NCBI RefSeq assembly: GCF_000425365.1 | Contig: NZ_AUDH01000001.1 | Span: forward strand, 62,001 to 126,000 | Reading direction: 5' to 3' | DNA from: Rubritepida flocculans DSM 14296 | GTDB taxonomy: Bacteria; Pseudomonadota; Alphaproteobacteria; Acetobacterales; Acetobacteraceae | DNA: 64,000 nt | In this document: in pieces, positions 8,665 to 52,781 of the stretch | How positions within the stretch are numbered: the stretch's first letter is position 1 | Layout of the letters: each line of letters begins with the position of its first letter | The notes under the pieces: model-generated | The model's input: only the letters and a program-made list of their open reading frames with translations | Databases searched by the model: none | Told to the model about the DNA's origin: nothing | Program-made: the position numbers and the translations under genes

Positions 8665-9618
8665 ATGGCCGATCTGCTCGCCCTCTACCGCACCATGCTC
8701 ACCATCCGCGAGGCGGAGATGGCCCTCGCCCGCCTCTTCGCCGACGGCGAGGTGCCGGGCTTCATCCACCTCTCGGTGGGGCAGGAGGCGGTGGCGGCGG
8801 GCGTCTGCTCGGCCCTCACCCCGCGCGACAGCGTGGCCTCCACCCATCGCGGGCATGGCCATGCGCTGGCGCACGGGCTCGACCTGCACGGCTTCTTCGC
8901 CGAGGTGATGGGCAAGGCGAGCGGCGTCTGCCGCGGGCGCGGCGGCTCCATGCATGTGGCCGATCTCTCCATCGGCATGCTGGGCGCGAACGGCATCGTC
9001 GCCGCGGGCGCGCCCATCGCGCTGGGGGCGGCGCTGGCGCACCGCACGCGCGGCACGGGCGGCGTCGCCGTCGCCTTCTTCGGCGACGGCGCGCTGGCCG
9101 AGGGCGTGATGCACGAGACGATGAACATCGCCGCGCTGTGGCGACTGCCCCTTCTGCTCGCCTGCGAGAACAACGGCTGGGCGGAGTTCAGCCGCAGCGA
9201 GACGCAGGTGGCCGCGCGCCTCTCGGCGCTGGCCGCCGCGCACGGCATCCCGCACCGCGAGCTGGACGGCGCCGATGCGCTCGCCCTCGCCGAGGCCGCG
9301 GAGGAGGCCGTCGCCGCGCTGCGCCGCGGCGAGGGGCCGCGCGTCATCGAGGCGCGCACGCGACGCTGGCGCGGCCATTTCGAGGGCGACCCCCAGCGCT
9401 ACCGCGACCCCGCCGAGGCCGCCGAGGCCGCCGCGCATGACCCCATCGCCCGCGCCCGCGCCGCCTTTCTCGCCGCCGGCGGCGAGGCGGCCCGGCTCGA
9501 CGCCATCGAGGCCGAATGCCGCGCCGCCATCGCCGCCGCCATCGAGGCCGCCCGCGCCGCCCCCGCACCGCGCTGGGAGGAGGAGCGCAGCGGGGCCTAT
9601 GCGCCGGCGGAGGGCTGA
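8665..9618 (+). CDS. Thiamine-diphosphate-dependent dehydrogenase E1 component, alpha subunit
   Basis: A 317-residue E1-alpha of the acetoin/pyruvate/2-oxoacid dehydrogenase family. The THRGHGHALAHG loop (near residue 60), GRGGSMHVAD and LGANGIV are characteristic of acetoin dehydrogenase and PDH-type E1-alpha. The thiamine-diphosphate motif runs from GDGA (140-143) to the asparagines of ENNGW. With E1-beta and E2 next door it should decarboxylate a 2-oxo acid or cleave acetoin and transfer the acyl group to lipoyl-E2. The start ATG 8665 lies 5 bases after livF. No dihydrolipoamide dehydrogenase gene is present here, so E3 must come from elsewhere. Whether the substrate is acetoin, a branched 2-oxo acid or something new cannot be read from sequence. 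Confidence 0.92.
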   Translation: MADLLALYRTMLTIREAEMALARLFADGEVPGFIHLSVGQEAVAAGVCSALTPRDSVASTHRGHGHALAHGLDLHGFFAEVMGKASGVCRGRGGSMHVADLSIGMLGANGIVAAGAPIALGAALAHRTRGTGGVAVAFFGDGALAEGVMHETMNIAALWRLPLLLACENNGWAEFSRSETQVAARLSALAAAHGIPHRELDGADALALAEAAEEAVAALRRGEGPRVIEARTRRWRGHFEGDPQRYRDPAEAAEAAAHDPIARARAAFLAAGGEAARLDAIEAECRAAIAAAIEAARAAPAPRWEEERSGAYAPAEG

Positions 9619-9621
9619 GCC

Positions 9622-10596
9622 ATGCCGGAACTGCGCACCCTGCAGGCCATCACCCGCGCCCTGGCCGACGCGATGGAGGCCGACCCCTCGGTGATCCTGC
9701 TCGGCGAGGACATCGGGCAGGCGGGCGGCCCCTTCGGCGCGACCCGCGGCCTGCAGGAACGCTTCGGCCCCGAGCGCGTGCGCGACACGCCGATCGCCGA
9801 GGCGGCGCTGGCCGGCGCGGCGGTGGGCGCGGCGCTGACCGGGCTGCGGCCCGTGGCCGAGATCATGTTCATGGACTTCATCACCCTCGCCATGGACGCG
9901 CTGGTGAACCAGGCGGCCAAGGCGCGCTTCATGTTCGGCGGGCAGCGCGGCGTGCCCATGGTGCTGCGCACCCCGCATGGCGGCGGCCTCTCGGCCGGGC
10001 CGCAGCACTCGCAATGCCTGGAGGCCTGGCTCTGCCATGTGCCGGGGCTGAAGGTGGTCTGCCCCGCCACGCCGGCCGACGCCTACGGGCTTCTGCGCAG
10101 CGCCATCGCCGATCCCGATCCCGTCATCGTGGTGGAACACAAGGGCCTCTACGCCATGAAGGGCGAGCTGGCCGACCCGCCGGAATGGACGCCCATCGGC
10201 CGCGCCCGCCTCGCGCGGCCGGGGCGCGACGCCACCATCCTCTGCTACGGCGCCGCCCTTCACTGGTCCCTCGCCGCGGCGGAGGAGCTGGCGCGCGAGG
10301 GCGTCGAGGCGGAGGTGCTGGACCTGCGCAGCCTCCAGCCCTGGGACGAGGCGGCGGTGCTGGAGAGCCTCTCGCGCACGCATCGCCTCGTCATCGCGCA
10401 TGAGGCGGTGGAGGCCTTCGGCGTCGGCGCCGAGATCGCCGCGCGCATGGCCGATATCGGCTTCGACGAGCTGGACGCGCCGATCCTGCGCGTCGGCGCG
10501 CCCTTCACCCCGGTGCCCTTCGCCCACCCGCTGGAGGCCGCCTGGCGGCCCGATGCGGCGCGCATCGCCGCGGCGGTGCGCCGCACCCTCGCCTGA
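9622..10596 (+). CDS. Thiamine-diphosphate-dependent dehydrogenase E1 component, beta subunit
   Basis: A 324-residue E1-beta with the transketolase pyrimidine-binding domain (LLGEDIGQAGG, then DTPIAEAALAG) and the C-terminal transketolase domain (ATILCYGA through LIVAHEAVEAFG-like sequence). It forms the alpha2-beta2 E1 with the preceding product and provides part of the cofactor site. The 3-base gap to E1-alpha shows tight coupling. The stop TGA overlaps an ATG of the next gene (TGATG), although the better-supported start of that gene is 12 bases further on. Confidence 0.93.
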   Translation: MPELRTLQAITRALADAMEADPSVILLGEDIGQAGGPFGATRGLQERFGPERVRDTPIAEAALAGAAVGAALTGLRPVAEIMFMDFITLAMDALVNQAAKARFMFGGQRGVPMVLRTPHGGGLSAGPQHSQCLEAWLCHVPGLKVVCPATPADAYGLLRSAIADPDPVIVVEHKGLYAMKGELADPPEWTPIGRARLARPGRDATILCYGAALHWSLAAAEELAREGVEAEVLDLRSLQPWDEAAVLESLSRTHRLVIAHEAVEAFGVGAEIAARMADIGFDELDAPILRVGAPFTPVPFAHPLEAAWRPDAARIAAAVRRTLA

Positions 10597-10607
10597 TGGA
10601 GAAGCGC

Positions 10608-11393
10608 ATGTCCGACGACCTCGTCCTCTCCGAGACGCATGGCGCGGTGGCGCTGCTCACCATCAATCGCCCCGCGGCGCTGAACGCGCTCGACGGCGCG
10701 ACCCTCGCGGCCTTCGAGCGCGCCTTCGAGGCCGCCGAGGCCGATCCCGCCCTGCGCGTCATCGTCATCACCGGCGCGGGGGAGAGGGCCTTCGTCGCGG
10801 GCGGCGACATCCGCGACCTCGACAGCCGCCAGGGCCTCGCGCACTACCTCGAACTCGGCGAGGCGCTGCACCGCGTGTTCAACCGCGTGGAGCGCTGCGA
10901 CAAGCCCACCATCGCCGCGGTGAACGGCTTCGCGCTGGGCGGAGGGACGGAGCTGCTGCTCTGCACCGATCTGCGCATCCTCGCCGAGACGGCGCGGCTC
11001 GGCCTGCCCGAGATCAATCTCGGCCTGTTCCCGGGCGCGGGCGGAAGCCAGCGCCTGATCCGGGAGATCGCGCCCTGCCGCGCGCGGGAGCTGATGTTCC
11101 TGGGCGAGCAGATCGGCGCGGAGCAGGCGCTCGCGCTCGGCCTCGCCAACCGCGTCGTGCCGCGCGGCGATGTGGTGCGCGAGGCGCTGGCCCTGGCCGA
11201 GCGGCTGGCGGGGAAATCGCCGCTGGTGCTGAAGCTGCTCAAGCGCACGCTGCGCGAGGGGGCGCAGATGCCGCTGCCCCAGGCGCTGGCGCACGAGCAC
11301 GCGATGATCGGCCTCGTGCTCGACAGCGCCGACGCCCATGAGGGCTGCCGCGCCTTCGCCGAGAAGCGCCCGGCCCGCTTCGCGGGCCGCTGA
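10608..11393 (+). CDS. Enoyl-CoA hydratase/isomerase family protein
   Basis: A crotonase-fold protein of 261 residues with the oxyanion-hole region FVAGGDIRDL, the central GGGTELLLCTDLRI segment and LGLPEINLGLFPGAGG with an active-site-type glutamate. It would hydrate a trans-2-enoyl-CoA. The start is placed at ATG 10608 because GGAGAAG lies 3-9 bases upstream; an in-frame ATG at 10596, overlapping the E1-beta stop, would add four residues. It sits between E1-beta and E2, so a beta-oxidation-type step appears to share regulation with the dehydrogenase complex. Confidence 0.9.
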   Translation: MSDDLVLSETHGAVALLTINRPAALNALDGATLAAFERAFEAAEADPALRVIVITGAGERAFVAGGDIRDLDSRQGLAHYLELGEALHRVFNRVERCDKPTIAAVNGFALGGGTELLLCTDLRILAETARLGLPEINLGLFPGAGGSQRLIREIAPCRARELMFLGEQIGAEQALALGLANRVVPRGDVVREALALAERLAGKSPLVLKLLKRTLREGAQMPLPQALAHEHAMIGLVLDSADAHEGCRAFAEKRPARFAGR

Positions 11394-43635: not shown

Positions 43636-45045
43636 TCAGCGGAAGACCGGCACGGCGTCGTCGTCCATCTGCGGCGGCGGGGGCAGCTCGATGGTGACGG
43701 TCGCGGGGTCCACCCCGCTGCCGGGCGCGATGAAATAGGTCACGCTCTCGGGCCAGAAGATCACGATGGCGACGAGCAGGAGCTGCAGCCCGAGCCAGGG
43801 GATGGCGCCGAGGTAGATGTCCTTCGTCAGCACCGCGGGCGGGGCGATGGAGCGCAGGTAGAACAGCGCGAAGCCGAAGGGCGGATGCATGAAGCTGGTC
43901 TGCAGGTTGATGCAGAGCAGCACGCCGAACCAGACGAGATTGATGTCGAGCTTCGCCGCCACGGGGGCGAGCAGCGGCACCACGATGAAGGCGATCTCGA
44001 AGAAGTCGAGGAAGAAGGCCAGCAGGAAGACGAAGACGTTGACGAAGACCAGGAAGCCCGTCTGCCCGCCCGGAAGCTGCGTCAGCAGCCCCTCCACCCA
44101 ATGCGACCCCTCCACGCCCTGGAACACGAGCGAGAAGACGGTGGCGCCGATCAGGATGTAGATCACCATGGCGGTGATGCGCGCGGTGTTGCCCATCGCC
44201 TCGCGCAGCAGGGGCCAGGTGAAGCGCCCGTTCATCGCCGCCAGCAGCACCGCGCCGGCCGCGCCCATCGCCCCCGCCTCGGTCGGCGTGGCGAGGCCGA
44301 GGAAGATGGTGCCGAGCACCAGGAACATCAGCGCCAGCGAGGGCACGATGCCGCGGATCACCCGCCAGTAGAGGCGCCAGTCGCGCCGCATCAGCGCCTC
44401 GGGCGGCAGCGGCGGCACGCGCTGCGGCGCGACGATCGCCACCAGCATGATGAAGGCGAGGAAGAGCAGCACCTGCAGGATGGAGGGGCCGATGGCCCCC
44501 GCATACATGTCCCCCACCGGCACGCCGAGCTGGTCGCCCAGCACGATCAGCACCAGCGCGGGCGGGATGAGCTGCGTGATGGTGCCCGAGGCCGCGATCA
44601 CGCCCGTGGCGATGCGCATGTCGTAGCCGTACTTCATCATGATGGGCAGGCTGATCATGCCCATGGCGATGACCGAGGCGGCGACCGTGCCCGTCACCGC
44701 GCCCAGCACCGCGCCGACGATGATGACGGCATAGGCGAGACCGCCCGGGATCTTGCCGAAGAGCTGGCCCGTGCCCTCCAGCAGATCCTCCGCCAGGCCG
44801 CAGCGCTCCAGGATCGCGCCCATCAGCGTGAAGAAGGGGATGGCGAGCAGCAGGTCGTTGGAGAGGATGCCGAAGATGCGCAGCGGCAGGTTGTAGAGGT
44901 AGGCCGGCGTGAAGAAGCCCAGCTCGATGAACAGGAAGCCGAAGAACAGCCCCACGGCGCAGAGCGAGAAGGCCACCGGAAAGCCCAGCAGCAGGAACAG
45001 CACGACGCCGCCGAACATCAGGGGCGGCATGATCTCCATGCTCAT
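43636..45045 (-). CDS. TRAP transporter large permease (DctM family)
   Basis: A 469-residue membrane protein with the 12-or-more-helix DctM profile: GVVLFLLLGFPVAFSL, AIPFFTLMGAILERCGLAEDLLE, ASGTITQLIPPALVLIVLGDQ, and FMHPPFGFALFYLRSIAP near the C-terminus. It forms the sodium-driven channel for a carboxylate. Ten bases separate it from the small permease. No periplasmic DctP gene is adjacent, so the binding protein must be encoded elsewhere. A C-terminal soluble tail of about 30 residues is longer than usual. Confidence 0.93.
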   Translation of the reverse strand: MSMEIMPPLMFGGVVLFLLLGFPVAFSLCAVGLFFGFLFIELGFFTPAYLYNLPLRIFGILSNDLLLAIPFFTLMGAILERCGLAEDLLEGTGQLFGKIPGGLAYAVIIVGAVLGAVTGTVAASVIAMGMISLPIMMKYGYDMRIATGVIAASGTITQLIPPALVLIVLGDQLGVPVGDMYAGAIGPSILQVLLFLAFIMLVAIVAPQRVPPLPPEALMRRDWRLYWRVIRGIVPSLALMFLVLGTIFLGLATPTEAGAMGAAGAVLLAAMNGRFTWPLLREAMGNTARITAMVIYILIGATVFSLVFQGVEGSHWVEGLLTQLPGGQTGFLVFVNVFVFLLAFFLDFFEIAFIVVPLLAPVAAKLDINLVWFGVLLCINLQTSFMHPPFGFALFYLRSIAPPAVLTKDIYLGAIPWLGLQLLLVAIVIFWPESVTYFIAPGSGVDPATVTIELPPPPQMDDDAVPVFR

Positions 45046-45055
45046 CGGCGCGTCC

Positions 45056-45604
45056 TCACTGCTCGGGCCGCTGGTAGGTGAAGACGCGCCCGGGCGGCAG
45101 CGCCAGGCCGCGCAGCAGGGCGATGCGCTTGATCAGCTCCGACAGCCCCTGCAGCACGATCAGCGAGAAGCCCACCGGCAGCAGCAGCTTCACCGGCCAG
45201 CGCAGCAGCCCCCCTGGCGCGGGCGAGCCCTCGTCGCGCAGGAAGCTCTCCCAGAAGAAGGGCCAGGTCATCCAGGCGAGCAGCGCCATGCCGGGCAGCA
45301 GGAAGGCGATGAAGCCGAACACGTCCATCCACAGCCGCCCGCGCTCGCCGAGCAGGCCGTAGAGGATGTCCACCCGCACATGCTCGTTGCGGAACAGGGT
45401 GTGGCTCGCGCCCAGCATCACCACGGCGGCGAAGAGATACCACTGCACCTCGAGCCAGGCGTTGCTGGAGAAGTTGAACCCGTAGCGCAGCGAGGCGTTC
45501 GCCGCGCTGATCGCGCAGGCGAGCAGGATGCACCAGTCGGCCAGCCGGCCGAAGCGCTCGTTGAGCCAGTCCACGCCCCGGCTGAAGCCCAGCAGAAGCC
45601 CCAT
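45056..45604 (-). CDS. TRAP transporter small permease (DctQ family)
   Basis: A 182-residue protein with four hydrophobic segments and the DctQ motifs ANASLRYGFNFSSNAWLEVQ and HTLFRNEHVRVDILYGLL. It partners the large permease encoded next. The start is placed at ATG 45604 because GGGGAGG lies 8-14 bases upstream. An in-frame GTG at 45655 would add 17 residues of unlike composition. It is divergent from the hydrogenase-like operon. Confidence 0.9.
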   Translation of the reverse strand: MGLLLGFSRGVDWLNERFGRLADWCILLACAISAANASLRYGFNFSSNAWLEVQWYLFAAVVMLGASHTLFRNEHVRVDILYGLLGERGRLWMDVFGFIAFLLPGMALLAWMTWPFFWESFLRDEGSPAPGGLLRWPVKLLLPVGFSLIVLQGLSELIKRIALLRGLALPPGRVFTYQRPEQ

Positions 45605-45748
45605 CGCCACCGCCTCCCCTCGGGAAGAGAGCCGCCCCCGTAAACCATGCGTCACGCTTGTCCAGCCTCGCCAGGGGGCCGGCGGGTGTTAAGCTCGCCC
45701 CATGCGGCGCGGCGAGGGGGATTCGGTGCGGGTGCGGGGGCGGGACGG

Positions 45749-47734
45749 GTGCTGAGCGCGCTCGGCCTTGCGCTCGGGGGGCTGCTCGGGCTCGGGCTCG
45801 CGGGGGCGCTGGGCCTCGCGGCGCGCTGGGCCGCCTTCGGCGCGGCGGCGGCGGCGGCGCTCTTCGCCCTGGCGGGGCTGCTGGGCGGGCCGGCCGTGCT
45901 CGATCTGCCCCTCGGCCCGCCGGGGGCGGCGCTGCGGCTTTCGCTCGATCCGCTCTCCGCCTGGTTCCTGCTGGTGCTGGGCGTGGTGGCGCTGCCGGCG
46001 GCGCTGATGGCGGCGGCGGGCGGCATCGCCGGGCGCGCCGAGGCGGCGGGGTTCCCGCTCTTCCTCGCGGGCATGGCGCTGGCGCTGCTGGCGGGGGATG
46101 TGCTGACGCTGCTGCTGGGCTTCGAGGCCATGTCGCTCGCCTCCTGGGCGCTGGTGGCGGCGCGCCACCCGGCGGGGGCGGGGCGGCGGGCGGCGCGGCT
46201 CTATCTGGGCTTCGCCGCCTTCTCGGGGCTGTGCCTGCTGGGCGGGCTGGCGCTGCTCGCGGCGCCGGGGGCGGGTTTCGCCGCGATCCGCGCCGCGCCG
46301 CCCGAGGGCTGGCGGGCGGCCGCGGCGATGGCGCTGGTGCTGCTGGGCGCCGGCTCCAAGGCGGGGCTGCTGCCCTTCCATCTCTGGCTGCCGCTCGCCC
46401 ATCCGGCGGCCGCCACGCCCGTCTCGGCGCTGATGTCGGGGGCGATGGTGAAGGTGGCGCTCTATGTGCTGGCGCGGGTGCTGTTCGACCTCGCGGGGCC
46501 GGCGCAGCCGGGCTGGTGGGGCGCGCCGCTGATGGCGCTGGGCGCGGCCACCGCGCTGTGGGGCGCGCTGCGGGCGAACACGGAGCGCGACATCAAGGCC
46601 ATCCTGGCCTGCTCCACCCTCGACAATCTGGGCGTGATCGCCCTCGCCCTCGGGCTCGCGCTGCTGTTCCGCGGTGCGGATCTCTCGCCGCTGGCGGCCG
46701 TGGCGCTCTCTGCCGCGCTGCTGCATGCGCTGGCGCACGGGGCCTTCAAGGGGCTGCTCTTCCTCTGCGCCGGGGCGGTGGCCGAGCGCGCCGGCAGCCG
46801 CGACCCCGACCGGCTGGGCGGGCTGATCCACAACATGCCGCTGGTCGCGGGCGCGGCGCTGCTGGGCGCGGCCTCGGCGGCGGCGCTGCCGCCCTTCGCG
46901 GGCTTCGCGGGCGAGTGGCTGCTGCTGCAGGCGCTGCTGCAGGGCTGGCGGCTGGCCGATCTGGCCGCGCAGCTCCTGATCGCCGCGGCGCTGGCGGCGG
47001 CGGCCATGGCGGCGGCGCTGGCGGCGGCGGCGATGCTGCGCCTGATCGGCCTCGTCTTCCTCGGCCGGCCGCGCACGCCGCGCGCCGCGGGGGCCGGGGA
47101 CGCGGCGGGGCTGGCGCGTGTGGCCCTGCTGCTCGCCGCCCTGTTCTGCGCGGCCGCGGCGCTGCTGGCGGGGCCGCTCCTCGGCCTCGCGGACGGGGCG
47201 GTGGCGGCGCTGCTGGGCGGGGCGGCGGGCGCGCCGGTCCATGGCCTCTCCCTGAGCCTGGGCGAGGCGGGCGCGCGCTATGCGCCGGCCGCCGTGCTGG
47301 GCGCGCTGCTGCTGCTGGCGGCGCTGCTGTGGCGGGCGGTGCGGCGCGCGGGCGCGCCGGCGGCGCAGCGCGGCCCCGCCTGGGATTGCGGCTTCCAGCC
47401 CCCGCCCGCGCATCTGCCCTTCGGCGACCCGCTGACCCAGCCCAGCGCGGCCGGCGCCGCCCAGCCGCTGCGGCGCGCGCTGGGCCCGCTGGCGCTGGCG
47501 CTGCGCGAGGCGCAGAGCCCGGCCGCGCCGGGGGCGGCGGCGCCCGCGCGGCTGCAGGTGGCGGCGCGGGACAGGGGATTCGGGGCGCTGCTGGCGCCGC
47601 TCGCCCGCGCACGGCGTCGCGCGGGGCATGAGGCCGAGCGCCTGCGCAACCTGCCGCTCGGCGCCTGCCTCGCGCTGGCCTTCGGCACGCTGGTCGGGCT
47701 GCTCGCCCTTCTGGCGGGGCTGGGGCGGCCATGA
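45749..47734 (+). CDS. hyfB: Antiporter-like membrane subunit of a hydrogenase/complex-I-related complex (HyfB/HycC-like)
   Basis: About 661 residues, of which the first 480 form the Mrp-antiporter/NuoL-M-N fold. Ion-path residues are visible: the glutamate in LLLGFEAMSLASWAL, the lysine in GSKAGLLPFHLWLPLAHP and the lysine in HGAFKGLLFL. The C-terminal third (AWDCGFQPPPA onward) matches the extension of HyfB/HycC proteins. The start is uncertain: GTG 45749 begins the first membrane helix, whereas ATG 45647 would add 34 residues of non-membrane composition. First gene of a six-gene operon with 1-4 base overlaps, divergent from the TRAP genes. Confidence 0.87.
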   Translation: MLSALGLALGGLLGLGLAGALGLAARWAAFGAAAAAALFALAGLLGGPAVLDLPLGPPGAALRLSLDPLSAWFLLVLGVVALPAALMAAAGGIAGRAEAAGFPLFLAGMALALLAGDVLTLLLGFEAMSLASWALVAARHPAGAGRRAARLYLGFAAFSGLCLLGGLALLAAPGAGFAAIRAAPPEGWRAAAAMALVLLGAGSKAGLLPFHLWLPLAHPAAATPVSALMSGAMVKVALYVLARVLFDLAGPAQPGWWGAPLMALGAATALWGALRANTERDIKAILACSTLDNLGVIALALGLALLFRGADLSPLAAVALSAALLHALAHGAFKGLLFLCAGAVAERAGSRDPDRLGGLIHNMPLVAGAALLGAASAAALPPFAGFAGEWLLLQALLQGWRLADLAAQLLIAAALAAAAMAAALAAAAMLRLIGLVFLGRPRTPRAAGAGDAAGLARVALLLAALFCAAAALLAGPLLGLADGAVAALLGGAAGAPVHGLSLSLGEAGARYAPAAVLGALLLLAALLWRAVRRAGAPAAQRGPAWDCGFQPPPAHLPFGDPLTQPSAAGAAQPLRRALGPLALALREAQSPAAPGAAAPARLQVAARDRGFGALLAPLARARRRAGHEAERLRNLPLGACLALAFGTLVGLLALLAGLGRP

Positions 47735-48693
47735 TGGCCCTGCTCGGCGCGCTGCTGACGCAGCTTCTGCACGGCGCGCTGCTGCTGGCCGCCGCGCCGC
47801 TGCTGCTCGGCCTCACGCGCACGGCGAAGGCCCGGCTGATGGGCCGGCGCGGCCCGCCCCTGCTGCAGCCCTGGCGCGACGCGCTGCGCCTGCTGCGCAA
47901 GCGCCCCATCCTGGCCGAGCACGCGAGCGTCGCGACGCGCGCGGCGCCCTATCTCGCCCTTTCGGCCACGCTGCTGGCCGGGCTGCTGGTGCCGGGCTTC
48001 GCGCAGGGCATGATCCTGGCGCCCTTCGCCGATCTGCTGCTCATCGCCGGGCTGCTCGGGCTCGCGCGGGCCGCGCTGGTGCTGGCCGGGCTGGATGCGG
48101 GCACCGCCTTCGGCGGGCTGGGCGCGGGGCGCGAGACCGCCTTCGCCGCCTTCGCCGAACCGGCGCTGCTCGTCTCCGTTCTGGTGCTCGCGCTGCTCGC
48201 GGGCAGCGCGAACCTGGACGCCATCGCCGCCCTGTTCCGCGAGGGCGGGCAGGGGCTGCGCGTCTCGCTGCTCTTCGCCGCGCTCGCGCTCTGCGCCGTC
48301 GCGCTCGCGGAGAACGCGCGGGTGCCGGTGGACAACCCGGCGACGCATCTCGAGCTGACCATGGTGCATGAGGCCATGCTGCTCGAGGCCTCCGGCCGCC
48401 ACCTCGCGCTGTGGGAGGCGCAGGCGGCGCTCAAGCTCGCGGTCTGGCTCGCTCTGCTGGCGGCGGTGTTCCTGCCATTCGGCATGGCGCCGGCGGGCGC
48501 GGGGCCGCTCTCCTGGCTGATCGGCGCGGCGCTGTGGGGGGCGAAGCTGGCGGGGCTGGCCTTCGCGCTCGCGGCGTTCGAGAGCGCCATCGCCAAGATG
48601 CGCGTCTTCCGCGTGCCGGAGTTCCTGGGGGCGGCGCTGCTGCTGGCGCTGCTCGCGGCGGCGCTGCTCTTCGTCTCCACGGGGCTCGCGTGA
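47731..48693 (+). CDS. hyfC: NuoH-like membrane subunit (HyfC/HycD-like)
   Basis: A 320-residue membrane protein of the NuoH/HycD family, which anchors the peripheral arm and starts proton translocation. The diagnostic loop VPVDNPATHLELTMVHEAM (about 200-218) with its conserved acidic residues is present, as is LMGRRGPPLLQPWRD near the N-terminus. The start ATG 47731 overlaps the previous stop, and the stop overlaps the next gene by one base (TGATG). Confidence 0.93.
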   Translation: MMALLGALLTQLLHGALLLAAAPLLLGLTRTAKARLMGRRGPPLLQPWRDALRLLRKRPILAEHASVATRAAPYLALSATLLAGLLVPGFAQGMILAPFADLLLIAGLLGLARAALVLAGLDAGTAFGGLGAGRETAFAAFAEPALLVSVLVLALLAGSANLDAIAALFREGGQGLRVSLLFAALALCAVALAENARVPVDNPATHLELTMVHEAMLLEASGRHLALWEAQAALKLAVWLALLAAVFLPFGMAPAGAGPLSWLIGAALWGAKLAGLAFALAAFESAIAKMRVFRVPEFLGAALLLALLAAALLFVSTGLA

Positions 48694-49361
48694 TGGGGCT
48701 GGGCGAGATCGGCTACGACGTAGCGCATCTGCTGGGCGGGGCGATGCTGCTCGTCTCCTTCGTGCTGCTGGCGCAGCGCCGGCTGGAGGCGGTGACGGGC
48801 GCGCTGGCGCTGCAGGGCGTGCTGCTGGCGCTGGCCGCCGCCTGGCAGGGGCATGTGCAGGGGGCGGGGCAGCTTCTCCTCACCGCGGGCATCGCGCTGG
48901 CGGCGAAGGGGCTCGGCATCCCGCTGGTGCTGCGGCGCATGGCCGCGGCGCTGCCGCCCGCGCAGCGCGCGGATGCGCCGGGGCCGCTCGCGCCCGTCAT
49001 GCTGGGCGCGGCGGGGCTGGTGGCGCTCGCCTTCCTCGTCGCGGTGCCGGCGACGCGCGGCGCGCCGGTGCTGGCGCGGGTGGACATCGCCATCGCGCTG
49101 GCCATCCTGCTTCTGGGCGCGCTGATGATGGCGACGCGCCGCGGCGCGCTCGCGCAGGTGGCGGGGCTGCTGACCATGGAGAACGGGCTGATCCTCGCCG
49201 CCGTCGGCGTGGCCGGGATGCCGCTCGTGGTGGAGCTCTCCACCGCCGGGCTGGTGCTGGTGGTGGCCGTCATCGCCGGCGTCTTCGCCCGGCAGCTCGG
49301 CGAACGCTTCGGCGCGCAGGACACGGCGCTGCTCGACCGCCACCGCGGAGAGCGGCGATGA
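48693..49361 (+). CDS. hyfE: Small membrane subunit of the hydrogenase-related complex (HyfE-like)
   Basis: A 222-residue protein with about six membrane helices. The C-terminal half (ARVDIAIALAILLLGALMMATRR, then LLTMENGLILAA) resembles NuoK/HyfE. These subunits carry membrane glutamates that relay protons; one lies in TMENGL. ATG 48693 is taken as start (TGATG overlap); GTG 48690 is adjacent and in frame. Confidence 0.88.
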   Translation: MGLGEIGYDVAHLLGGAMLLVSFVLLAQRRLEAVTGALALQGVLLALAAAWQGHVQGAGQLLLTAGIALAAKGLGIPLVLRRMAAALPPAQRADAPGPLAPVMLGAAGLVALAFLVAVPATRGAPVLARVDIAIALAILLLGALMMATRRGALAQVAGLLTMENGLILAAVGVAGMPLVVELSTAGLVLVVAVIAGVFARQLGERFGAQDTALLDRHRGERR

Positions 49362-50779
49362 GCCCGGCGGGCGCGCTGGTGCTGCTGCACCTGCTGGGCG
49401 CAGGGCTGCTGGCCGCCTGGCCGGCGCGCGCGGCGCTGCTGAACCTGCTGCTGTGCGGCGCGGCGCTGGTTCCGGCGGCGCTGCTGCTCTCCGCGCCCGG
49501 CGGCGAGGGCTGGCTGCGGGCGGATGCGCTGAACGCGCCCTTCGTGATGCTGTCGGCCATCGTCGGCTTCGGCACCGCCCTCTTCTCGCTCGAGGATGTG
49601 CGCGGCGAGGGCTTCGACGGGCGGCGGCTGCGCTCCTACCACGCCGCCTTCCAGGGCTTCCTGGCGGCGAACCATGTGGCGCTGCTGTCGGACAATCTGG
49701 GGATCCTCTGGGTGGCCATCGAGGCGGGCACGCTCGCCTCGGTGGTGATGGTGGGGGTGCACCGCACCCCCGCGGCCATCGAGGCGGCGTGGAAGTTCTT
49801 CGTGCTCTGCGGCTTCGGCATCGCGCTGGCGCTGTTCGGCATCATCGTGCTGGCGCTGGCCGGCGCGCCGCATCTGCCCGGGGGCGAGGCGCGGCTCTCG
49901 GCGGCGGCGCTGCGCGAGGTGGCGGCGCGCATGGACCCCGCGCTGCTCAACCTGGCCTTCGTCTTCCTGCTGGTGGGCTTCGGCACCAAGGCGGGCCTCG
50001 TGCCGCTGCATTCCTGGCTGCCCGACGCGCATGCGGAGGGGCCCACGCCCATCGCCGCCGTGCTCTCGGGGCTGCTGCTGAACGCGGCCATGCTCGCCAT
50101 CCTGCGCGGGCAGGGCATCGTGGCGGCGAATGGCGAGGCGCTCTCGCCCGGCGGATTCCTGCTGGCCATGGGCCTCGCCTCGCTGCTGCTCGCGGGCGTG
50201 ACGCTGTGGCGGCGGCGCGACGCGAAGCGGCTGCTGGGCTGGAGCAGCATCGAGCACATGGGGCTCGCCGCCATCGCCTTCGGCCTGGGCGGGCCGGCGG
50301 GCAATGCGGCGGGGCTTCTGCACCTCTGGGGCCATGCGCTGCTCAAGAGCGCGGCCTTCTTCGCCATCGGCCGCGCCGCCCGGCTGAAGGGGGATCAGCG
50401 CATGGACGCCATCGGCGGGCTCGCGCGCAGCCACCCGCCGCTGGGCTGGGGGCTGGTGCTGGCCATGGCCGGGCTGGCGGGGCTGCCGCCCTTCAGCCTC
50501 TTCGTCTCGGAATGGTGGCTGGCGGGGGCGGCGGCGCGGACGGCGCCCTGGGTGCTGGCGCTGCTGCTGCCGGGGCTGCTGGTGGCGGGGCTCGCCCTGC
50601 TGCACGCCATGCAGCGCCTCTGCCTCGGCCCCCCCACGCCGGACGCCGCGCCGGGCCCCGCCGGGCTTTCCGCGCTGCTGCCGCTGTGGACGAACCTGCT
50701 GCTGGCGCTGCTCATCGCGCTGGCGCTGCCCGCGCCGCTGGCCGCGCTGCTGCGCGAGGGCGCGGGGCTGCTGCCATGA
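49358..50779 (+). CDS. hyfF: Second antiporter-like membrane subunit (HyfF-like)
   Basis: A 473-residue protein of the NuoL/M/N antiporter fold. Conserved charged residues are present: the glutamate in LGILWVAIEAGTLAS, the lysine in GFGTKAGLVPLHSWLPDAHA and the lysine in HLWGHALLKSAAFF. It probably adds a second ion channel to the complex, as HyfF does in E. coli hydrogenase 4. Overlaps of 4 bases with both neighbours. Confidence 0.92.
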   Translation: MSPAGALVLLHLLGAGLLAAWPARAALLNLLLCGAALVPAALLLSAPGGEGWLRADALNAPFVMLSAIVGFGTALFSLEDVRGEGFDGRRLRSYHAAFQGFLAANHVALLSDNLGILWVAIEAGTLASVVMVGVHRTPAAIEAAWKFFVLCGFGIALALFGIIVLALAGAPHLPGGEARLSAAALREVAARMDPALLNLAFVFLLVGFGTKAGLVPLHSWLPDAHAEGPTPIAAVLSGLLLNAAMLAILRGQGIVAANGEALSPGGFLLAMGLASLLLAGVTLWRRRDAKRLLGWSSIEHMGLAAIAFGLGGPAGNAAGLLHLWGHALLKSAAFFAIGRAARLKGDQRMDAIGGLARSHPPLGWGLVLAMAGLAGLPPFSLFVSEWWLAGAAARTAPWVLALLLPGLLVAGLALLHAMQRLCLGPPTPDAAPGPAGLSALLPLWTNLLLALLIALALPAPLAALLREGAGLLP

Positions 50780-52260
50780 CCGCCGCGGCGCTTCTCACGA
50801 CGGGCGCCCCCACCGCCTGCGCGCCCTGGCCGCGCGTGGTGCTGGACCGCGCCGCCTGGATCGCGCTGCGCGACGCGCCGGGGCTCGATCTTCTCGCGCT
50901 CTGGGGCGCGCCGGGCTTCGCGCATGCGGCCTTCCTGGACCGTGCGGCGCTGCGCGTGGTGCTCGCCTCGCTGCCCGCGCCGGAGGGGCGCTTCCCCGCC
51001 CTCTCGCCCGGGCGGCCCGGCGCGGTGCTCTTCGAGCGCGCGCTGCACGATCTCTGGCGCCTGACGCCCGAGGAGGCGGTGGATGCGCGGCCCTTCCTGG
51101 ATCACGGGCGCTGGCCGCTGGCGGGGCCGCTCTCCGCCCGCCCCGCGCCGCAGGCGCCCGAGGCGCCGCCCATGGCCTTCCTGCCCGCCGAGGGCGAGGG
51201 CGTGCACCAGATCCCCGTCGGGCCCATCCATGCCGGGATCATCGAGCCCGGGCATTTCCGCTTCCATGTGCAGGGCGAGACGATCGTGCGGCTGGAGGCG
51301 CGGCTCGGCTACACGCACAAGGGCACGCTCTCGCTGATGCTCGGCAAATCGCCGCGCGCGGCGGCGCGCTTCGCCGCGCGGCTTTCGGGCGATTCCACAG
51401 TGGCCCATTCGCTGGCCTTCGCCCGCGCGGCCGAGGCGGCGGCCGGCGTGCCCGCGCCGCCGCGCGCCGCGGCCATCCGCGCCGCCATGCTGGAGCTGGA
51501 GCGGCTGCACAACCACCTCAACGACCTCGGCTTCATCGCCAATGACGCGGCCTTCGCGGCGCTGCACGCGGAATGCGGCTGGCTGCGCGAGGGGCTGCTG
51601 CGCGCCCAGCACGCCGCCTTCGGCCATCGGCTGATGATGGACCGCGTGCTGCCCGGCGGGGTGGCGCAGGATCTCGACGCCGCGGGCGTCGCGGCGCTGC
51701 GCGGGGCGCTGGCGCGCATCGCCGCCGCCCTGCCCGGGCTTCTGCGCATCTACGAGAGCCACGCGAGCCTGCAGGACCGCATGGTGGGCACCGGCGTCAT
51801 CCCGCCCGCGCTGCGCGACGCCTTCGCCCCCGGCGGCGTGGTGGGGCGCGCCGCGGGCCGGGCCTTCGACGCGCGGGTGCTGAACGGCGAGATGGCGGCC
51901 GAGGCGATGCCGCTGCACGCCGCCGGCGACGTGGACGCGCGCTGGCGTCAGCGCCACGCCGAGGCCGGCATCGCCATCGCCCGCGCCGAGGCGCTGCTCG
52001 CCGCCCTGCCCGAGGGGCCGCTCGCCCTGCCCCTGCCCGCGCAGGGCGGCGAGGGCGTGGCGCTGGTGGAGGGGTTCCGCGGCGAGTGCCTCGCCTGGGT
52101 GATGCTGGACGATGGCGGGCTGATCGAGGCGCTCTACCTGCGCGACCCGTCCTGGCTGCACTGGCCGCTGCTGGAGGCCGCGGCGATCGGCAACATCGTC
52201 GCGGACTTTCCGCTCATCAACAAGAGCGTCAACGGCAGCTACAGCGGGGTGGATCTCTGA
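50776..52260 (+). CDS. hyfG: Fused NuoC-NuoD-like large subunit without [NiFe] ligands (HyfG/HycE-like, Ehr type)
   Basis: A 494-residue fusion: residues 15-120 resemble the NuoC/30-kDa domain and 140-494 the NuoD/hydrogenase large subunit (GPIHAGIIEPGHFRF, RLGYTHKGTLSLM). In group-4 hydrogenases the active site is held by a CxxC near the SGDST region and a second CxxC near the C-terminus. Here the first site reads RLSGDSTVAH (202-211) and the second RDPSWLHW (456-463), with no cysteines. The whole protein has only C15, C267 and C438, so it cannot bind the NiFe centre. The rest of the fold is well conserved, which indicates a working protein of the energy-converting-hydrogenase-related (Ehr) class. 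Confidence 0.9.
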   Translation: MTAAALLTTGAPTACAPWPRVVLDRAAWIALRDAPGLDLLALWGAPGFAHAAFLDRAALRVVLASLPAPEGRFPALSPGRPGAVLFERALHDLWRLTPEEAVDARPFLDHGRWPLAGPLSARPAPQAPEAPPMAFLPAEGEGVHQIPVGPIHAGIIEPGHFRFHVQGETIVRLEARLGYTHKGTLSLMLGKSPRAAARFAARLSGDSTVAHSLAFARAAEAAAGVPAPPRAAAIRAAMLELERLHNHLNDLGFIANDAAFAALHAECGWLREGLLRAQHAAFGHRLMMDRVLPGGVAQDLDAAGVAALRGALARIAAALPGLLRIYESHASLQDRMVGTGVIPPALRDAFAPGGVVGRAAGRAFDARVLNGEMAAEAMPLHAAGDVDARWRQRHAEAGIAIARAEALLAALPEGPLALPLPAQGGEGVALVEGFRGECLAWVMLDDGGLIEALYLRDPSWLHWPLLEAAAIGNIVADFPLINKSVNGSYSGVDL

Positions 52261-52781
52261 TGCTCTGGCCGAAGCTCGCGCGCAACCTGCTCTCCCGGCC
52301 GCGCACCGACCCGCCGGTGACGCCGCGCCCCGAGGTGGTGGCGGCGCTGCGCGACAGGCTGGCCGAGGCGGGGCAGCGCCGGCTCGGCCGTTCCCTCGCC
52401 ATCCGGCACGTGGATGCGGGAAGCTGCAACGGCTGCGAGCTGGAGTGCCATGCGCTCGGCAATGTGGCGCATGACCTGGAGCGCTACGGGCTGCGCTTCG
52501 TCGCCTCGCCGCGCCATGCGGATGTGCTGCTGGTGACGGGCCCGCTGACGCGCAACATGGCCGAGGCGCTGCTGCGCTGCCGCGCCGCCACGCCCGAGCC
52601 CGCCTGGATCGTCGCCGCCGGGGACTGCGCGGTGGATGGCGGGGTGTTCAAGGGCAGCTACGCCGTGCTGGGCGGGGTGGAGGAGGCGATCATGCCCGAC
52701 CTCGTGATCCCCGGCTGCCCGCCCACGCCGACGCACATCCTGGAAGGGCTGGTGGCGCTGCTGGAGGCCAACGCGGGCTGA
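52260..52781 (+). CDS. hyfI: NuoB-like Fe-S small subunit (HyfI/HycG-like)
   Basis: A 173-residue protein with the N2-type [4Fe-4S] ligand set intact: CNGC (C56, C59), GDC (C123) and PGCPP (C153), with the family segments ADVLLVTGPLTRNM and AAGDCAVDGG. It should carry the proximal cluster beside the large subunit. The retained cluster next to a large subunit with no metal site points to quinone- or other redox-linked chemistry rather than H2. ATG 52260 overlaps the previous stop. Last gene of the operon; no 2x[4Fe-4S] ferredoxin-type subunit gene follows. Confidence 0.92.
   Translation: MLWPKLARNLLSRPRTDPPVTPRPEVVAALRDRLAEAGQRRLGRSLAIRHVDAGSCNGCELECHALGNVAHDLERYGLRFVASPRHADVLLVTGPLTRNMAEALLRCRAATPEPAWIVAAGDCAVDGGVFKGSYAVLGGVEEAIMPDLVIPGCPPTPTHILEGLVALLEANAG

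Follow-up and report, generated by a model that had tools for sequence, protein, structure and literature searches.

The window analyzed here comprises 64,000 nucleotides of the genome of Rubritepida flocculans DSM 14296 (contig NZ_AUDH01000001.1; genome of 3.83 Mb, 99% complete), and its positions 45749–52781, on the + strand, carry an operon of six genes related to those of hydrogenase-4 (Hyf) and complex I (Nuo), whose predicted product is the subject of this work. An initial annotation of the sequence had described six overlapping genes of the HyfB, C, E, F, G and I types, and these were recovered at the same coordinates, neighbouring open reading frames (ORFs) overlapping by 1 or 4 bases each. 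The first gene (45749–47734) encodes a HyfB-like antiporter subunit of 661 aa from a GTG start, with an alternative in-frame ATG possible at 45647; it is followed by the genes of a HyfC/NuoH-like subunit (47731–48693, 320 aa), a HyfE-like membrane subunit (48693–49361, 222 aa), a HyfF-like antiporter subunit (49358–50779, 473 aa), a large subunit with a hydrogenase/NuoD-like domain behind an N-terminal domain and no nickel (Ni) ligands (50776–52260, 494 aa), and a small subunit with one [4Fe-4S] site (52260–52781, 173 aa). The antiporter-like and NuoH-like membrane subunits are thus encoded in the same operon as a large subunit of the Cys-less kind, that is, without the Ni-Fe cysteines. Pfam matches above cut-off were obtained for five of the six proteins, the exception being the HyfE-like one, and the NCBIfam models matched were of the HyfB, NuoH, HyfE, HyfF, NuoD and NuoB types, every score shown being below the curated cut-off (NF005086 at 492.8 bits against a cut-off of 667 for the HyfB-like protein; NF008556 at E 4.5e-16 for the HyfE-like one). 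Among the named relatives covered by the scan, Roseococcus sp. SKW89 is the nearest, its large subunit being 92% identical.

Relationship to hydrogenases, complex I and the Ehr class

The gene order B-C-E-F-G-I is common to the window and to hydrogenase-4 and formate hydrogenlyase (Hyc) of E. coli, and HycE and HycG are the best solved matches of the large and small subunits; however, the window operon lacks HyfA, D, H and J, the Ni ligands and the C-terminal extension. Homologues of NuoB, NuoD, NuoH and of the NuoL/M/N type relate it likewise to complex I, but the operon is limited to six genes, lying between TRAP transporter genes, with no NADH module or NuoI, the NuoD sequences branch apart, and the host genome has a separate NuoD. 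Homology also extends to the MbhL, MbhJ and MBX subunits of the Pyrococcus MBH/MBX complexes, with a large-subunit similarity lower than that to HycE: among PDB entries, HycE was the best match of the large subunit (7z0s_E, E 3.4e-43; rank 1 in Foldseek, E 1.8e-26), with 151.4 bits against 95.6 for MbhL and 34.8 for MBX, and for the small subunit HycG came first and MbhJ next.

The common features of energy-converting-hydrogenase-related (Ehr) complexes, as given in passages of PMC6349859 and PMC10284858, are group-4-like large and small subunits, antiporter-like subunits and the absence of Ni-Fe cysteines. In the window form a single Fe-S site is present and a ferredoxin-type subunit is lacking, unlike in an Ehr operon of a Variovorax plasmid (L147), where a 249-aa '4Fe-4S binding protein' is encoded directly after the large subunit. 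A tree built from 81 large subunits, with no named reference Ehr (such as that of Geobacter) among them, places the window in a single group of 69 Cys-less Ehr sequences (support 71), apart from nine HycE/HyfG-type and two NuoD sequences. Both composition and tree point to the window complex being a member of the Ehr class, the assignment made in the initial annotation, and this complex would descend from, or be sister to, a nickel hydrogenase.

A further locus, L224 (G113:C107, large subunit at 9301–10914, − strand), joins the base of the Ehr group (support for Ehr plus L224 of 97, starred). Its large subunit has all four Ni-Fe cysteines (AERICGVCSFAHGMG, NKSFELCYSCTDR) and no C-terminal extension, 16 of the 18 pump sites described below are retained, and its genome, 88% complete, is absent from the HypD matches of the family; L224 is a candidate hydrogenase at the Ehr base, or a contaminant contig.

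The large subunit and its altered Ni-Fe pocket

The large subunit contains three cysteines (positions 15, 267 and 438), and the initial annotation had concluded, from the motifs RLSGDSTVAH (202–211) and RDPSWLHW (456–463), that both CxxC pairs of the Ni-Fe centre were absent. Alignments to E. coli HycE with HMMER and MAFFT agree on the absence, all four cysteine positions being replaced (S204, S207, S488 and G491), but not on the second motif: it is the C-terminal NKSVNGSYSGVDL (residues 482–494) that aligns with HycE IGSLDPCYSCTDR and is the true L2 site, and RDPSWLHW is excluded as such. Cys-less large subunits end at the L2 site, with no residues after it, versus 31–32 further residues in HycE/HyfG-type sequences, an extension that is also absent from some group 4 members. 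When the window is compared with 30 relatives, no variation is seen at S204, G205, D206, N486, S488, Y489, G491 and D493, nor at H152, E157, H160 and R162 in the adjoining loop, G149-P150-x-H152 ... E157-P-G-H160-F-R162, which is retained despite the loss of the Ni ligands; S207 is at least 90% conserved across the same 31 sequences, and R202, N482, K483 and S484 complete the conserved pocket set. Given these invariant pocket and loop residues, the Ni-Fe pocket is a rebuilt and conserved one.

Since the Ni-Fe ligands are absent and HypD was not found in the 99% complete host genome (0 of 1; E. coli positive control detected; HypD alone was searched, and not HypA, B, C, E or F), the complex is predicted not to be a hydrogenase. 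The earlier claim that it cannot be one agrees with this prediction, and the accompanying claim that no hyp maturation genes are present holds for HypD, the part covered by the search. That the complex is nevertheless an active hydrogenase with unusual ligands, or that its cysteines are hidden by sequencing errors, is extremely improbable; the Cys-bearing L224 does share the same subunit set, but across 31 aligned sequences no change is seen at S204, S488 or G491 and hardly any at S207, and to the missing HypD is added the missing C-terminal tail. The pattern goes beyond chance, since large-subunit relatives occur, at E<=1e-40, in 101 of 150 genomes from the family, a few being Cys-bearing hydrogenases or divergent forms, while HypD was found in 27 of the 150 (26 above cut-off); comparison of the two lists, in which some genomes are incomplete, gives 25 of the 101 with a HypD match and 76 without. 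Across 348 genomes of the phylum, 72 have relatives (E<=1e-25), and relatives also occur in 75 plasmid records; both numbers take in true hydrogenases.

The Fe-S site and the membrane subunits

The four [4Fe-4S] ligands of the small subunit (C56, C59, C123 and C153) are all present, as initially annotated, and the set is complete in 159 of 161 aligned small subunits, or in 148 of 150 when 10 Cys-bearing hydrogenase-type sequences and E. coli NuoB are excluded. In the membrane subunits, the residues considered to belong to the pump are E126, K204, H211, K235, H330, K334 and E389 of HyfB, E122, K211, H218, H326, K330 and E385 of HyfF, and the acid chain E135, E194, D201, E208 and E214 of HyfC. 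These 18 sites (seven, six and five, respectively) were defined from the window sequence and used as a pump score; E. coli Hyf has the identical residue at all 18, and the charged residues of the two antiporter-like subunits are intact, as previously noted. Among eight assessable Cys-bearing hydrogenases taken as control, five scored 18/18, two 11/12 and one 10/12.

The 18 pump sites, ten pocket sites and four cluster-cysteine sites were scored around 233 large-subunit ORFs in 231 loci. Rows with fewer than 11 covered pump sites were left unclassed, which applied to 39 of the 233 and among these to the majority of the extreme acetic-acid-bacteria-like loci; ten were intermediate, of which L191 (12 of 18 sites), L168 and L145 look real, the rest corresponding to unaligned or truncated HyfB or to contig ends. 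The pump-intact rows were reduced from 151 to 143 by removing eight Cys-bearing hydrogenases, L224 being kept, and the pump-dead rows from 33 to 31 by removing L293_15, an additional ORF from a locus already counted, and L096, with HyfB unaligned. The 143 pump-intact loci, the window and L224 included, retain 2440 of 2459 covered pump sites, and the 140 distinct ones, after removal of three duplicate rows, 2393 of 2411. All four cluster cysteines are found in 137 of 140 pump-intact loci with a small subunit, the exceptions being L146 (TDES), L154 and L175, the called small subunits of the latter two aligning poorly. The ratio of nonsynonymous to synonymous substitution rates (dN/dS) between the window and L032 is 0.13–0.26 (HyfC, HyfE, HyfF and small subunit), and 0.28–0.57 against L033 and L036 for all six genes. 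A set of 40 loci from other families within the phylum comprises 37 pump-intact loci, one intermediate and two that are not assessable.

A putative redox-linked ion pump

Because the cluster cysteines and the canonical pump residues are intact, the best reading is that the window probably encodes a six-subunit Ehr complex coupling a one-cluster redox reaction to ion pumping. No ferredoxin-type subunit or formate dehydrogenase is encoded in the operon or its flanking genes, in agreement with the first observation on ferredoxin-like subunits and formate dehydrogenase, and because the operon has no wire of the HyfA, HyfH or NuoI type, a soluble carrier encoded elsewhere is expected to dock on the small subunit. 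Electrons would then reach the single [4Fe-4S] cluster, a small acceptor would be reduced or oxidised in the rebuilt pocket of the large subunit, and the reaction may drive H+ or Na+ through HyfB and HyfF; residue patterns, conservation and placement are observed here, whereas donor, acceptor, direction and ion are matters of inference. The initial annotation had spoken of a working ion-pumping redox machine: the intact cluster and pump residues agree with this description, whereas its working was deduced from residues only, and because the pump has gone from related complexes of this clade, the family is not defined by pumping.

Several points weigh against a redox-linked pump. The predicted structure of the large subunit is poor in the pocket loops, with a predicted local distance difference test score (pLDDT) <50 at 126–182 and 489–494. 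A complex-I-type quinone site is not supported in the large subunit, because Nqo4 Tyr87 pairs with G205 in the ungapped HMMER alignment; His38, which together with Tyr87 (Nqo4 numbering) we take to form the quinone site of complex I, pairs with I156, a less certain match in view of a loop length differing by two in the MAFFT alignment. As to electron entry, passages of PMC7894505 report that the Ehr subunits of Geobacter are more abundant on formate, their role there being said never to have been investigated, and its authors suggest a link to formate dehydrogenase and to H2 formation from formate; complexes of formate dehydrogenase and Ehr are also proposed in part of PMC6349859, and these links, so far as those passages go, fit the window operon only with a partner elsewhere in the genome. 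An Ehr copy on plasmid pMESIL01 of Allomeiothermus silvanus (L146, 11992–14141) retains 17 of 18 pump residues, yet TDES replaces its four cluster cysteines and its L1 loop is gapped. Finally, 31 loci from 22 genus codes, all in the family of the window, are pump-dead, retaining 46 of 502 covered pump sites.

Pump-dead relatives in the Acetobacteraceae clade

In each of two trees, the pump-dead loci fall at two positions within the family clade to which the window belongs, and at least two losses are indicated: the starred branches force two, a single loss occurs in 0% of 200 bootstrap trees, and a one-origin pump-dead clade is rejected by the approximately unbiased (AU) test (p 0.00074; 10 pump-dead of 34 rows), a value that is optimistic because the tested group was defined after earlier trees were seen. 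The residues are lost in otherwise well aligned helices, GFEAMS having become GFGLVA and HALAHGAFKG having become QALHQAAAVT in L194. The same loci retain 109 of 116 cluster cysteines, with all four in 26 of the 29 that have a small subunit; the incomplete sets are those of L216 (GCGS), L260 (CCCS) and L287 (CG-R, at a contig end). L216 (G100), in a single-contig 2.7-Mb genome, has 2 of 18 pump sites and has lost three of the four cysteines, its operon perhaps decaying.

In seven classed pump-dead pairs, dN/dS is 0.11–0.49 for the large subunit and 0.25–0.68 for the membrane subunits; for the small subunit, five pairs give 0.16–0.28 and the other two 1.15 and 1.19, the latter values having little weight in either direction because the ORFs are over-long (582 and 622 aligned residues). 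The L209/L210 pair is near saturation, and two more pairs, of loci too diverged for classing, give 0.08 for the large subunit. Since most pump-dead pairs lie below 0.7, the pump-dead genes look maintained, with the membrane part under weaker constraint. A pump-intact copy is also present in nine of the 31 genomes with a pump-dead copy, and the five of these included in the tree (L193, L196, L198, L273 and L298) all lie outside the window's clade.

These data argue for an Fe-S half more durable than pumping in the Ehr relatives, the redox half then being the part held longest by selection and pumping the part that can be shed. Nevertheless, L146 keeps the pump without the cluster, L216 and L260 have lost cysteines, and the pocket of the pump-dead loci erodes, with 3–7 of 10 residues retained. 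An ion pump removed at least twice from an already Ni-Fe-less Ehr in this clade, with Fe-S site and operon kept, has in our view an even chance of being the correct account; the surviving redox role would then be the ancestral Ehr activity, coupled to pumping in the window. A rival reading places the real function of the family in the redox half, as a one-cluster electron-transfer module anchored in the membrane that would exchange electrons with a carrier or quinone; the pump would still ride along in the window and have decayed in sister lineages. This reading draws on the same contrast between lost pump sites and kept cysteines, on the repeated loss and on the low dN/dS of most pairs; we regard it as rather unlikely, in view of the two high small-subunit ratios (from over-long ORFs), the nearly saturated L209/L210 pair, the pocket erosion and the three incomplete cysteine sets of 29, and also because 99% conservation of pump sites in the intact loci implies that pumping matters where it is kept. 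A non-redox ion transporter or antiporter with a structural cluster would account for L146 and for the lack of a prominent redox-partner gene in or near the operon, but L146 is a single plasmid copy, and of the 29 pump-dead loci with a small subunit 26 still have all four cysteines after losing the pump; this alternative is quite improbable. A redox-linked pump stays the favoured reading for the window.

Still more diverged versions occur in small acetic-acid-bacteria-like genomes (L222, L241–L251, L253, L254 and L256); eight of these 15 loci have a recognised small subunit, with four cysteines each, and seven have no recognised one, the pump being unclassed. The membrane genes of L241–L254 are mostly unrecognised by profiles, and the six-gene layout in L243, L244, L247–L249 and L251 is deduced from position, size and hydrophobicity, the small subunit of L244 being unrecognised. 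In five of 40 chosen genomes, NuoD above cut-off is absent, yet an Ehr-like large subunit is retained. By eye, the derived operon of L204, L205, L207, L209, L210, L212–L214 and L222, also acetic-acid-bacteria-like, adjoins pepA/holC-like genes, with pssA/psd-like genes on the other side in most.

Implications for the Ehr class

The Ehr class is reportedly credited by citing papers to Coppi 2005 and Marreiros et al. 2013. Its function is described, in passages of PMC10284858 and PMC6728331, as unknown or yet to be determined. Ehr complexes are described as an intermediate form linking hydrogenases with complex I. Both the class and the question of its function had already been published, as passages of PMC10284858, PMC6349859 and PMC6728331 show; what is new here is the finding of at least two pump-residue losses inside the Acetobacteraceae Ehr clade, and no description of a pump-less Ehr was found in the titles and abstract openings covered by a narrow check of the open-access literature. 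The Ehr relatives offer a natural dissection, with typical copies having pump and cluster, cluster-only copies and one pump-only plasmid copy, and Ehr function is for this reason testable by comparing matched complexes from non-pathogenic bacteria. If true, the pump-dead Ehr would be relatives of complex I that are maintained although they make no H2 and pump no ions.

Neighbouring genes and regulation

Divergent from the operon, and not part of the complex, are the genes of two TRAP transporter subunits on the − strand, DctM (43636–45045) and DctQ (45056–45655), the latter 93 bases from the hyfB start; the other flanking genes of the window encode a BKACE enzyme and a GlmU-like protein, so named from its domains. 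A divergent DctM/DctQ pair stands out most among the neighbours: of 124 loci for which 1.5 kb or more of sequence precedes the operon, 35 have such a pair no farther than 2.6 kb upstream, over twelve named genera, and these include two of the three loci of g47, the genus code of the pump-dead L194 and L195. This neighbourhood may reflect plain synteny or a functional link. No conserved redox-partner gene was prominent near the operon among the commoner neighbour clusters, judged and named by eye, in surveys of 111 and 167 loci (25 clusters inspected in the first, the top 40 of 958 in the second, 12 re-read). The weak candidates are a protein of 726 aa bearing several motifs of the [4Fe-4S] type (four loci, 4–10 kb downstream, opposite strand) and, at scattered positions, a zinc-alcohol-dehydrogenase-like cluster (10 loci) and a cluster resembling short-chain dehydrogenases/reductases (SDR; 12 loci).

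An FNR/FixK-type box upstream of hyfB was considered and rejected, with no enrichment over 137 loci (one perfect box versus 0.19 expected, three versus 2.5 at 9/10 or better, 23 versus 26 at 8/10 or better; best in the window 6/10). Two putative regulators are encoded mostly directly upstream of hyfB: a 95-aa XRE-like protein in 17 loci (L101, L104, L105, L108, L109, L152, L155–L157, L159, L161, L162, L164, L193, L196, L202 and L230) and an XRE-cupin-like one in 11 (L163, L175–L178, L181, L182, L184, L186, L187 and L190). Near the plasmid-borne Ehr operons L144, L147 and L150, universal stress protein genes are found in all three cases, whereas YoaK and spermidine-synthase genes each occur near two of them.

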